DNA of 26,957 nucleotides from Halanaerobiales bacterium (GTDB taxonomy: Bacteria > Bacillota_F > Halanaerobiia > DY22613): the NCBI GenBank assembly GCA_023128035.1, contig JAGMES010000054.1, forward strand, positions 1 to 26,957. Direction: 5' to 3'. Every line of letters begins with the position of its first letter. The first letter of the stretch is position 1. The notes under the pieces are model-generated. The model was not told where the DNA came from. It searched no databases and was given only the letters and a program-made list of their open reading frames with translations. Of the stretch, positions 4,756 through 26,957 are shown piece after piece. Made by a program: the position numbers and the translations under genes.

Positions 4756-5499
4756 ATGAATTTAAGTGGCAAGGTAGCTGTTGTAACTGGAAGTTCAAAA
4801 GGCATTGGTGCTGCCATTGCTTTGTCTTTAGCAAAAGCTGGTGCAGATGTTGCTGTAAATTATGCTCGCGATACTGAAGGTGCTGAAAAGATTGTTAGTC
4901 AAATTACTGAATTAGGACGTAGAAGTAAAGCTTATCAAGCTGATGTTTCAAATGTAGATCAGGTTAATACAATGATGAATGAAATTATTGAAAATTTTGG
5001 AAAAGTAGATATTCTTGTCAATAATGCAGGTATTACTGCTGATGGATTATTACTTCGTATGAAAGAAGAAGACTGGGACCGAGTATTAGATATAAATTTA
5101 AAAGGTGTTTTCCTATGTACTAAAGCAATTACTAAGAAAATGATGAAACAAAGAAGTGGAAAAATTATAAATATTACTTCTGTTGTTGGATTAATTGGAA
5201 ATCCGGGTCAAGCAAATTATACTGCTGCTAAAGCGGGTGTGATTGGTTTTACAAAGACAATCGCTAGAGAATTTGGCTCACGGGGAATTCAAGTAAATGC
5301 GATTGCACCTGGATATATTATTTCTAAGATGACAGAATCTCTTCCTGAAGAGGTCAAAGAAAGTATGTTAAAATCTATTCCACTAGGACGTTTTGGTAAT
5401 GTTGAGGATGTGGCAGATTTAACGTTATTTTTATCCTCTGATAAATCTGATTACATCACAGGTCAAGTTTTTAATGTTGATGGTGGAATGGTAATGTAA
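4756..5499 (+). CDS. fabG: 3-oxoacyl-ACP reductase (FabG)
   Basis: FabG reduces 3-oxoacyl-ACP with NADPH. The 247-residue short-chain dehydrogenase has the cofactor motif TGSSKGIGAA (residues 11-20), NNAGI at 89-93, and the catalytic Ser142, Tyr155 and Lys159 (YTAAK). It ends in the family motif GQVFNVDGGM. The start ATG follows GGGAGGC with good spacing. Right after its stop the operon is interrupted by a hairpin repeat (5499-5594) whose first bases overlap the stop codon. Acyl carrier protein comes next, as in Bacillus. Confidence 0.96.
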   Translation: MNLSGKVAVVTGSSKGIGAAIALSLAKAGADVAVNYARDTEGAEKIVSQITELGRRSKAYQADVSNVDQVNTMMNEIIENFGKVDILVNNAGITADGLLLRMKEEDWDRVLDINLKGVFLCTKAITKKMMKQRSGKIINITSVVGLIGNPGQANYTAAKAGVIGFTKTIAREFGSRGIQVNAIAPGYIISKMTESLPEEVKESMLKSIPLGRFGNVEDVADLTLFLSSDKSDYITGQVFNVDGGMVM

Positions 5500-5594
5500 T
5501 GATTAACCCACAAAAAGTAGTCGCATAAGAGCTCTCGTACCATTATGGTACATGAATTCTTGAACGACTAAAATACTTTTTGTGGGTGAATCAT
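5499..5594. repeat. Palindromic intergenic repeat, copy 2 (complete, 96 bp)
   Basis: The outer ends are ATGATT (5499-5504) and AATCAT (5589-5594). Inside them, CCCACAAAAAGTAGTCG on the left pairs with CGAC, TAAAA, TACTTTTTGTGGG on the right. The TAAAA is unpaired and exists only on the right arm. The centre (about 5525-5567) holds its own imperfect hairpin around GTACCATTATGGTAC. The element separates fabG from acpP. It may act as a partial terminator for fabG and may donate a -35-like TTGTGG (5580-5585). Confidence 0.85.
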
Positions 5595-5595
5595 G

Positions 5596-5624
5596 TAATA
5601 TAATATAATATAATATAATATAAT
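5596..5624 (+). repeat. TAATA microsatellite forming a ladder of -10 boxes
   Basis: Five exact TAATA units plus TAAT run from 5596 to 5624. They create overlapping TATAAT boxes starting at 5599, 5604, 5609, 5614 and 5619. A TTGTGG at 5580-5585, in the right arm of the hairpin repeat, lies 18 bases upstream of the box at 5604. This makes a plausible acpP promoter whose spacing would change if the repeat gained or lost units. Repeat seen directly; promoter function inferred. Confidence 0.6.
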
Positions 5625-5647
5625 GGATTTGAAAGGAGGTGAAATTC

Positions 5648-5881
5648 ATGGAGGTATTTGATCGCGTAAAGAATATCGTTGTTGAAGAATTAGGAGTTGA
5701 GCCAGAAGAGGTGAACTCTGAGGCATCTTTCATAAAGGATTTGGGAGCTGATTCTTTAGATATCGTTGAGTTAATTATGGCTTTTGAGGAAGAATTTGAT
5801 ATTGAGATTCCAGATGAGGATGCTGAAAGTATTTCAACTGTACAAAATGCAGTTAATTACATTGGAAAAAATGTCTCATAA
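5648..5881 (+). CDS. acpP: Acyl carrier protein
   Basis: ACP carries the growing acyl chain on a phosphopantetheine arm. The 77-residue acidic protein has the attachment Ser36 in [10 protein letters not shown]. The ATG at 5648 is chosen because AAAGGAGGT (5632-5640) lies seven bases upstream; an in-frame GTG at 5639 falls inside that site. It is probably made in large excess over its enzymes. This fits its own candidate promoter just upstream and the strong hairpin 13 bases downstream that would reduce read-through into fabF. Confidence 0.97.
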
Positions 5882-9295: not shown

Positions 9296-9751
9296 TTGAT
9301 CTGTACAGATCGATTTATAAAGTGGATTGTCACTGTAGGATTGATCTTGTTAATTACCATTCAGATAATGATGCGATTTGATGGGACACAGCATTATTTA
9401 AAATTAGTAGAAAGCCGGATACAAGGTTGGGTAGGTACTGAAGTTAAAGAAGTTGTGGTATTTAATAGGGAAGAATATATCACCCTAAAGCTATTAAATG
9501 GAGCTATTCACAAAGCTAGGGTATTGCTAAATAATGAAAGAGATTATTATTTTTCTAAGTCAACTATACAGATTCCTGTCAAAGATGGTGATTTATTAAT
9601 TCTGGATACTCGGGGAATAAGTGAAGCTTTATGGTTTGAAGTTATTGATTTTTCAGATAAGATTACAAGTTTAAAATTTGGCCAGCAATTTAGGGTAAAG
9701 AATGATCTACAAGTTATCTCAATTGAGGTAAATAGTCAGAGAAAATTTTGA
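9296..9751 (+). CDS. Unrecognised single-pass membrane protein
   Basis: I do not recognise this 151-residue protein. It has one N-terminal hydrophobic segment (about residues 8-26, WIVTVGLILLITIQIMM) and then a soluble domain of mostly beta-type sequence (for example STIQIPVKDGDLLILDTRG). This suggests an anchored extracytoplasmic domain with a faint, unproven resemblance to YibE-like N-terminal regions. The TTG at 9296 is preceded by AAAGGA about ten bases upstream. A nearer ATG at 9290 is in another frame and stops after 30 codons. It lies 63 bases after the flavoprotein, is probably co-transcribed with it, and is followed by a long hairpin. Confidence 0.7.
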   Translation: MICTDRFIKWIVTVGLILLITIQIMMRFDGTQHYLKLVESRIQGWVGTEVKEVVVFNREEYITLKLLNGAIHKARVLLNNERDYYFSKSTIQIPVKDGDLLILDTRGISEALWFEVIDFSDKITSLKFGQQFRVKNDLQVISIEVNSQRKF

Positions 9752-9761
9752 AATCCATTAT

Positions 9762-9824
9762 TTAATATACCCTCTATAGGTTATCACTAAAAATTAGTAT
9801 GACAACCTATAGAGGGTATATTAA
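9762..9824. terminator. Very long hairpin, probable bidirectional terminator
   Basis: Bases 9762-9786 pair with 9800-9824 over 25 positions with one mismatch, closing a 13-base loop that itself contains CTAAAAATTAG. The right arm is followed by ATTTTAG rather than a long T run. It separates the rnc operon from cmk. The stem is far longer than an ordinary terminator, so a mobile or regulatory origin is possible. The remaining bases to 9946 show nothing beyond AT-rich sequence. Confidence 0.6.
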
Positions 9825-9946
9825 TTTTAGCGTAAGGATTTTTTTGTTATATACCTAATTTTTAAAAATCATGAGAAGGAAATTATATTGAAATCTTGAA
9901 TATAGAATGGATGTTGTATTTTTACCTTTGAAAGGATGATGTTTAC

Positions 9947-11470: not shown

Positions 11471-11502
11471 ATGTAATAACGTAGTTATTACATCGACTTT
11501 AA
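11471..11502 (+). repeat. Direct hairpin repeat A in the ispH-rpsA leader
   Basis: A 32-base unit containing the hairpin GTAATAACgtaGTTATTAC (8 bp) and ending CGACTTTAA. It is 27/32 identical to unit B exactly 80 bases downstream. Function unknown. Confidence 0.7.
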
Positions 11503-11550
11503 TTGTGCGTTTGCGCGAGTAATATACAGCCTAAAACTGGGGAATGCTAG

Positions 11551-11582
11551 ATGCAATAACATAGTTATTATTTCGGCTTTAA
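11551..11582 (+). repeat. Direct hairpin repeat B in the ispH-rpsA leader
   Basis: Second copy of the unit at 11471-11502. The hairpin AATAACataGTTATT and the ending CGGCTTTAA are retained. It ends 26 bases before the ispH Shine-Dalgarno sequence at 11609. Confidence 0.7.
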
Positions 11583-25969: not shown

Positions 25970-26353
25970 ATGGCAAATAAAGTTTTTCAAATGAAGGAAG
26001 GAATCAACTATTCCCTTTACATCAATAAATATATTTATTCTTCTGGTGATATAATAGAAATGACCCTTAATAAATATAATGTTAGTAATCAAGAAAAAAA
26101 ATTTCGTTATAACACTTCTCAGTATTATGATTTTATTATAAAAAAAGATGAGCAGGTGATCTGGAGATGGTCAGAGGGAAAATATTTTCTTCAGTCTCTT
26201 CAATTCAAACTTCTAGAACCAGGTCAAGATTATTCTGCTCAAGAGGTATGGGAGATTCCTGATGATCTAAATAGTGGTGTTTATAAAGTTGAAGGTATTA
26301 ATCTTGCGTTTCCTCAAGTAAAATTAGAAGTTTCAATAAAAGTAAATAACTAG
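25970..26353 (+). CDS. BsuPI-type intracellular proteinase inhibitor domain protein
   Basis: The 127-residue protein is one BsuPI-like beta domain: IIEMTLNKYNVSN, then YDFIIKKDEQVIWRWSEGKYFLQSL, then LEPGQDYSAQEVWEIP, matching the family pattern YDFxV..G..xWRWSxGxxFxQ..L. In Bacillus the domain inhibits the intracellular serine protease. No signal peptide is visible, which agrees with a cytoplasmic role. It follows the TrkA-like gene by 31 bases with AAGGGAGATG upstream and is probably co-transcribed with it. The hairpin repeat begins four bases after its stop codon. Confidence 0.85.
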   Translation: MANKVFQMKEGINYSLYINKYIYSSGDIIEMTLNKYNVSNQEKKFRYNTSQYYDFIIKKDEQVIWRWSEGKYFLQSLQFKLLEPGQDYSAQEVWEIPDDLNSGVYKVEGINLAFPQVKLEVSIKVNN

Positions 26354-26357
26354 TTTT

Positions 26358-26475
26358 AATGATTTGTCACAAAAAGTAGTCGCAATCACATACTATATAA
26401 AGTACTGAATTAGACGGGTTCAGTACTTTATATAGTATGCGAGTGCGGCTAAAATACTTTTTGTGACGAATCATT
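26358..26475. repeat. Palindromic intergenic repeat, copy 3 (complete, 118 bp)
   Basis: The ends are AATGATT (26358-26364) and AATCATT (26469-26475). The arms CACAAAAAGTAGTCGCA and TGCGGCTAAAATACTTTTTG match copies 1 and 2, including the extra TAAAA on the right arm only. The centre is a perfect 21-base-pair hairpin (26389-26409 with 26419-26439, loop of nine) unrelated to the centre of copy 2. It lies between convergent genes and may end transcription from both sides. Confidence 0.88.
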
Positions 26476-26479
26476 TTTT

Positions 26480-26502
26480 AAAAAAAGCACGCTTATGCGT
26501 GC
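26480..26502 (-). terminator. Terminator of the reverse-strand DUF1540 gene
   Basis: On the - strand, GCACGC, a 4-base loop (ATAA) and GCGTGC are followed by T7. The stem lies eight bases after the DUF1540 stop. Confidence 0.88.
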
Positions 26503-26510
26503 CTATTATT

Positions 26511-26660: not shown

Positions 26661-26873
26661 TTTCATACCTCCTTTGTTAATCTTATTGGTATTAGTTTTT
26701 ACATTAGCTCGAAAAATATGACATTCTGAAATTCTTGCAGATAATAAATATAAAAAGTTTATGCTTTATTTGCAGGGAATTGCCGAAATATCCAGAATAA
26801 TATTTCTGAGGCAGGGAAGTTTATTAATTTTTAGTTTTAAAAAAATGTAAAACCGAAAAGTTTTCAATTTTAA

Positions 26874-26942
26874 GTTCAAGTGAACTCGTCCAGCTAAAGC
26901 TGAACATCGGGGCTTCAGTAGGGGATTCTACCCCCACTGAAG
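26874..26942 (+). mobile_element. Possible right end of an IS200/IS605-type element (remnant)
   Basis: Three hairpins lie in line: GTTCAagTGAAC (26874-26885), CAGCTaaAGCTG (26891-26902), and CTTCAGT with GGGG (26913-26924) pairing to CCCC and ACTGAAG (26931-26942). The sequence ATCGGGGCTTCAGTAGGGG is of the kind I associate with the right ends, and guide-RNA scaffolds, of tnpB-bearing IS200/IS605 elements. No tnpA or tnpB coding sequence is visible upstream. A simple terminator-like structure is the alternative. Confidence 0.35.
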
Positions 26943-26957
26943 ATTAAAAACAATTCC

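Follow-up and report, generated by a model that had tools for sequence, protein, structure and literature searches.

Genes and repeat copies in the window

The window, meaning here the whole stretch of DNA that was analysed, is 27 kb long with 35.4% G+C, and its long open reading frames (ORFs) lie mainly on the + strand. Fourteen distinct proteins encoded in it were covered by a profile scan against NCBIfam and Pfam. Matches above the cut-offs of these collections were obtained for FapR, FabH, FabG, CMP kinase, an IspH-S1 fusion, SpoIIP, SpoIVA, a BsuPI-domain protein, a DUF1540 protein (minus strand), an acyltransferase and an HU-type protein. TIGR03279-like and TrkA-like proteins matched below the cut-offs, and no Pfam family matched ORF 9296-9751. 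ORF 5639-5881 is presumed to be acpP from its sequence and its place after fabG. Gene content suggests a spore-forming host within the Bacillota, perhaps one of the Negativicutes. Two proteins of the window, compared with plasmids by tblastn, had no match at 60% identity or above. A search with the BsuPI-domain protein gave four proteins, the window's own included, from six candidates, the nearest other being 61% identical; so few relatives suggest that the lineage is sparsely sampled.

Several small features accompany these genes. Upstream of fapR, positions 61-89 contain the arrangement TTGCAT-17-TATAAT, which is absent from the list of the promoter and terminator scan, together with overlapping ATTAGTA-type repeats that we take to resemble the FapR operator. 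These operator-like repeats suggest that fapR may regulate itself. A perfect 5-base tandem repeat of TAATA (5596-5624, 5.8 copies) lies shortly before the ribosome-binding site of the presumed acpP and includes several overlapping TATAAT boxes; it might serve as a promoter of variable length. Two similar stretches, 11473-11502 and 11553-11582, are located between the acyltransferase gene and ispH-rpsA, each with a small palindrome followed by CGRCTTTAA. The region 11473-11582 is possibly a duplicated small membrane-peptide gene.

The window certainly contains a small palindromic repeat family, represented by two complete copies (5499-5594 and 26358-26475) and one right half (1-32). The initial annotation had placed three copies at exactly these positions, and the repeat search, which recovers both the arms and the direct copies, bears the coordinates out. 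The parts of the repeat are as follows.

1-32, + strand: copy 1, right half only, recognised by direct repeats and as an inverted pair with the left arm of copy 2
1-6, 7-11 and 12-32, + strand: parts of copy 1, namely TGCGAC, TAAAA and the outer right arm
5494-5500, + strand: left direct repeat ATGTAAT of copy 2, a possible target-site duplication, which includes the fabG stop codon
5499-5594, + strand: copy 2, complete, 96 nt, between fabG and the presumed acpP (ORF 5639-5881)
5499-5519, + strand: outer left arm of copy 2 (inverted pair)
5517-5520, + strand: GTAG at the 5' foot of the inner stem of copy 2 (read from the sequence)
5520-5525, + strand: inner foot GTCGCA of copy 2, identical in copy 3
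5526-5562, + strand: variable interior hairpin of copy 2 (fold z -4.35 for 5525-5562)
5569-5573, + strand: unpaired TAAAA in the right arm of copy 2 (RNA and DNA folds)
5574-5594, + strand: outer right arm of copy 2 (inverted pair)
5593-5599, + strand: right direct repeat ATGTAAT of copy 2, a possible target-site duplication
26358-26475, + strand: copy 3, complete, 118 nt (repeat search and fold)
26376-26379, + strand: GTAG at the 5' foot of the inner stem of copy 3 (read from the sequence)
26385-26443, + strand: variable interior of copy 3, a nearly perfect hairpin (z -10.9 for 26384-26443)
26450-26454, + strand: unpaired TAAAA in the right arm of copy 3 (RNA and DNA folds)
26455-26475, + strand: outer right arm of copy 3 (inverted pair)

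The window starts inside copy 1, the left half of which falls outside. Copies 2 and 3 are located between the listed ORFs (at least 80 aa). The last base of the fabG stop codon (5497-5499) is the first base of copy 2, and copy 3 starts 5 nt past the last base of the BsuPI-domain gene (25970-26353) and precedes a two-way terminator-like hairpin (26485-26504). The genes that flank the copies are ordinary housekeeping genes, as judged from the 14 proteins scanned.

The arms of copy 2 (5499-5519/5574-5594) and of copy 3 (26358-26378/26455-26475) are each 21 nt long and 95% complementary. The right arm occurs as three direct copies, at 1-22, 5563-5584 and 26444-26465. Its word, CTAAAATACTTTTTGTG, is found three times in exact form in the window, and the left-arm word, CACAAAAAGTAGTCGCA, twice. 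With three mismatches allowed the counts remain exactly three for the right-arm word (shuffles expect 0.32, and at least three were seen in 1 of 100) and exactly two for the left-arm word (0.07 expected, at least two in 2 of 100); all five matches are exact though three mismatches were permitted. A 17-mer present three times, as in the window, was found in none of 50 dinucleotide shuffles. Related copies are thus found at separate gene boundaries, with common arms, GATT...AATC ends and, in both complete copies, a TAAAA on one side only.

Folding of the arms and the interiors

Both complete copies are predicted to fold much better than shuffled sequence. The RNA folds have z-scores of -8.8 (copy 2) and -15.3 (copy 3), none of 200 shuffles being as good for either, and the DNA folds of the + strand have z-scores of -8.9 and -14.6. 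A one-sided 5-base bulge is present in the minimum-energy folds of both copies, on both strands and with both RNA and DNA parameters. The bulge on the + strand consists of TAAAA; that on the minus strand of copy 3 is displaced by one base. The initial annotation had put TAAAA on the right arm alone in every copy, which holds for the two complete copies, copy 1 having no left arm with which to compare.

The arms were compared through lists of predicted pairs, registered by hand from the inside outwards. These pairs were used instead of an alignment because MAFFT misplaced the left arm of copy 3 on account of the unrelated interiors. Between copies 2 and 3, two pairs of the outer arm change on both sides (C-G to T-A and C-G to G-C), one pair of copy 2 is missing in copy 3, and one place reads A/G in copy 2 and T/G in copy 3. 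The remaining outer pairs are identical. With two double-sided pair changes and one pair gained or lost, the arms thus keep their complementarity as they diverge. A single base distinguishes copies 1 and 2 in the variable four bases of the outer right arm.

A single change of an arm pair to G-U had been described for copy 3. The T/G pairing is indeed seen, but the conserved arms contain two such pairs: the first belongs to the outer arm and the second to the inner foot, where GTCG/CGAC becomes GTCG/CGGC. These T/G pairs can pair in the sense RNA only. The sense RNA of copy 3 is more stable than the antisense RNA (-68.8 against -61.3), whereas copy 2 has its more stable RNA on the antisense strand (-45.2 against -42.9 for the sense RNA). 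The strand stabilities of the two copies do not decide for selection at the RNA level.

A feature absent from the initial annotation is the variability of the interiors. The interiors of copy 2 (41 nt) and copy 3 (63 nt) resemble each other no better than shuffled sequences do, with alignment P = 0.13 in direct orientation and 0.35 for the reverse complement (1000 shuffles; one pair of copies). Each interior is nevertheless self-complementary (z -4.35 in copy 2, -10.9 in copy 3; 0 of 200 shuffles as good). The combination of conserved arms with interiors that are replaced but folded is the one unusual trait of the repeat, though two complete copies are too few to make it a rule.

A second long palindrome, of a different sequence, occupies positions 9751-9841. 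It has AAATCC...GGATTT ends and 25-nt arms (9762-9786/9800-9824) that are 96% complementary. It starts at the last stop-codon base of ORF 9296-9751 and has TTTTG on both sides, and its RNA fold leaves 7 bases unpaired in the right arm against 1 in the left. One exact 21-base scan of viral contigs gave no match to it. At the right edge of the window (26870-26957) there is an imperfect hairpin, CTTCAGT-AGGGG/CCCCC-ACTGAAG, with a DNA fold z of -3.1 (1 of 200 shuffles as good), which presumably resembles an IS200/IS605-type end. BLASTN of this hairpin against plasmids returned only weak matches (E 0.8).

Searches beyond the window

No convincing copy of the repeat was found by scans for exact words in viral contigs and in one genome of each GTDB species, or by BLASTN of plasmids and phages. 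This absence is weak evidence because the genomes of close relatives may be missing from these collections.

The right-arm word was encountered in 6 stretches of viral contigs and in 7 of GTDB genomes, where the word included CGNC before the arm, so that diverged families could escape. Eleven of these 13 stretches have no left arm (at most 2 mismatches) within 130 nt upstream. The other two, both viral and of the same sequence where compared, carry TACAAAAAGAA with 2 mismatches. This stretch looks like the tail of a coding frame that stops at the TAA within CTAAAA, and it folds weakly (-12.2 kcal/mol over 143 nt); for these two reasons it was taken for a chance match. The left-arm word was found in 31 viral stretches, 11 of which have the 9-base TACTTTTTG (at most 2 mismatches) nearby downstream; none of the 31 has an 11-base match to TACTTTTTGTG (at most 2 mismatches). 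The pattern of the inner foot led to two viral stretches, identical where folded, which fold otherwise and were rejected. The right arm together with its end gave no match in the exact-word scan. BLASTN of the repeat gave no match in plasmids and, in phages, 14 Campylobacter phage records with E 0.4 over 24 bases, which were attributed to chance, and otherwise nothing.

Comparison with the 4227 families of Rfam gave no match at the gathering score in the whole window. At an E-value limit of 5 there were 17 matches around copy 3 and downstream of it and 3 around copy 2, all below the gathering score. The best match in the copy 3 region was to a miRNA family (E 4.4e-6), and the same region matched the Streptococcus SpF25_sRNA with E 0.0031 and 31.7 bits against a gathering score of 48. 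These sub-threshold matches, mostly to miRNA hairpins, were regarded as generic hairpin matches. Intergenic palindromic repeats are known as a broad kind; the family itself is probably new, and it was not found in print, though the literature search was thin.

Origin and possible role of the repeat

Three dispersed copies with near-identical arms are present in 27 kb of otherwise housekeeping DNA. Together with a direct repeat at one of them, this makes it likely, as far as sequence can tell, that the repeat is or was mobile. Copy 2 has symmetric ends, GATT...AATC, and ATGTAAT stands directly outside both of them as a 7-base direct repeat. At a single fixed register, 7 bases match with a frequency of 0.000155 (200,000 draws from the intergenic DNA of the window, draws closer than 40 bases being counted as misses). 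When 25 end offsets are allowed, 2.05% of 4000 random flank pairs reach at least 6 bases, a few of these being self-overlaps. Since several registers were open, the fair chance figure for the repeat at copy 2 is by our own estimate nearer 1%. The corresponding ends of copy 3 show no direct repeat (ACTAGTTTTAAT against ATTTTTTAAAAA); a 6-base repeat, TTTTAA, appears only if asymmetric ends are chosen, in flanks of low complexity. Evidence of target duplication therefore comes from one of the two complete copies, copy 1 being at the window edge. The suggestion in the initial annotation that the family may be a non-autonomous element gains from the MITE-like direct repeat that bounds copy 2, and loses from copy 3, which has no clean one.

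Our preferred reading, to which we give somewhat better than even credence, is that of a small interspersed non-autonomous palindromic repeat of the MITE or REP kind, spread by a transposase supplied elsewhere. MITEs are described as AT-rich and intergenic, with transcripts that form stable stem-loops (PMC10969869). Like the MITEs Correia/NEMIS, ERIC, RUP and QMITE, the repeat is about 100 nt long and intergenic, has long terminal inverted repeats and would form a stable hairpin if transcribed. The terminal inverted repeats are, as in MITEs, common to the dispersed copies (21-nt arms, 95% complementary, in both complete copies). Unlike MITEs, the repeat has an interior that is not detectably common to copies 2 and 3, and it has no known parent insertion sequence. 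Interiors without common sequence would not be expected if the copies descended recently from one MITE, which argues against the MITE or REP reading. The direct repeat at copy 2 leans slightly towards a DDE rather than a Y1 transposase; among the 14 window proteins scanned there is no transposase.

A rival possibility is that the repeat resembles REPs and travels as single-stranded DNA, moved by a Y1 transposase (RAYT/TnpA-REP or an IS200-type TnpA), with GTAG and the bulge marking the strand and cleavage at the CT after the inner stem. The initial annotation had likewise been reminded of the hairpins that Y1 transposases recognise. We regard this possibility as unlikely. In both complete copies the inner stem has GTAG at its 5' foot, and in all three copies CT follows it directly on the 3' side, a likeness to REPs judged by eye. 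The strand-fixed polarity of the repeat fits single-strand chemistry. The direct repeat at copy 2, however, speaks against Y1 chemistry, which is not known to make such repeats. Sources on REPs describe a GTAG or GTGG tag 0-2 nt from the hairpin, bulges in most families of one subclass, and cleavage by TnpA-REP at CT, and for one studied enzyme also at CA (PMC8266576, PMC6006769). GTAG at the hairpin foot, CT after it and a one-sided irregularity are therefore likenesses to REP/REPIN elements. So is the self-complementary loop, which occurs in some REP families: variable self-complementary loops are described for GTAG-3 and GTAG-14 REPs, and interiors of up to 27 bp for one family, in a GTAG-repeat survey that also mentions RAYT-like genes with flanking long inverted repeats (PMC3733652). 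REPs are stated to be 20-40 nt (PMC3733652) or 21-65 nt (PMC6006769) long, whereas the repeat measures 96 and 118 nt and has a further outer stem of 20-21 bp, absent from REPs as far as these sources describe them. The tag of REPs is unpaired; the GTAG of the repeat is paired within the outer stem in the predicted full fold of both complete copies. IS200-class Y1 transposases are strongly represented in Clostridia (PMC6006769), but the phyla given in the GTAG-repeat survey are Proteobacteria, Cyanobacteria, Chloroflexi and the PVC group, and the word Firmicutes is absent from it (PMC3733652). No RAYT gene is found among the 14 window proteins scanned. The imperfect hairpins with strand polarity are also like the subterminal hairpins of IS200/IS605 elements; unlike these, the repeat has no second end, and there is no transposase in the scanned part of the window.

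Strand polarity has a counterpart in integron attC sites as well. The repeat would then be a folded-strand recombination site in which imperfect arms and extrahelical bases set the strand and the terminal structure varies, a proposal that we find scarcely credible. Conserved outer arms, one-sided unpaired bases and a terminal part that stays folded despite its differing length and sequence agree with the general layout of attC sites (PMC8946536). The surroundings differ: the flanks are housekeeping genes rather than a cassette array, and none of the 14 proteins scanned is an integrase. A further, improbable idea is that the outer arms and the TAAAA bulge form a recognition module for a strand-specific nuclease or recombinase, and that the interior is an exchangeable slot for any self-complementary sequence, so that one family would comprise many unrelated hairpins.

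The repeat might instead be a cis-acting RNA signal that is not mobile, a long 3' hairpin that protects or ends the upstream transcript or marks it for RNase III. In this case copy 2, between fabG and acpP, could raise acpP mRNA over fabG mRNA. The initial annotation had considered an RNA-processing signal as well. We hold an RNA signal to be rather improbable. On the sense strand, copy 2 starts where a stop codon ends and copy 3 starts 5 nt past one, but this nearness has little weight for an RNA role because four terminator-like hairpins in the window start at similar distances (6, 7, 13 and 18 nt) after stops. The double-sided pair changes between the two copies favour an RNA signal, as do the T/G pairs of copy 3, which hold in its more stable sense RNA and not in the antisense RNA; the greater stability of the antisense RNA of copy 2 goes against it, as does the absence of an Rfam family at the gathering score. 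A T-run follows copy 3 and not copy 2, and neither copy is among the results of the terminator scan, whose model is a simple stem closed by a loop of 3-8. That nearly the same arms occur beside unrelated genes has the look of spread.

According to the preferred reading of a non-autonomous element, the copies would have been created by insertion, of which the 7-base direct repeat at copy 2 alone may be a trace, and a transposase encoded elsewhere would spread the repeat in the genome. Copies 2 and 3 would be situated within the 3' untranslated RNA of the upstream gene, and the repeats are probably transcribed as hairpins. A role of the transcribed hairpin is plausible: a long hairpin may block 3' exonucleases or may be cut by a double-strand RNase. 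The interiors might remain self-complementary because open loops do harm, or else through self-repair of the palindrome by template switching.

On two complete copies, the finding amounts to one more unnamed intergenic repeat family. If many copies were to share the arms and have unrelated folded interiors, the family would reveal which part of a palindromic repeat is recognised by its mover, and would provide a natural experiment on why bacterial repeats keep their interiors self-complementary.
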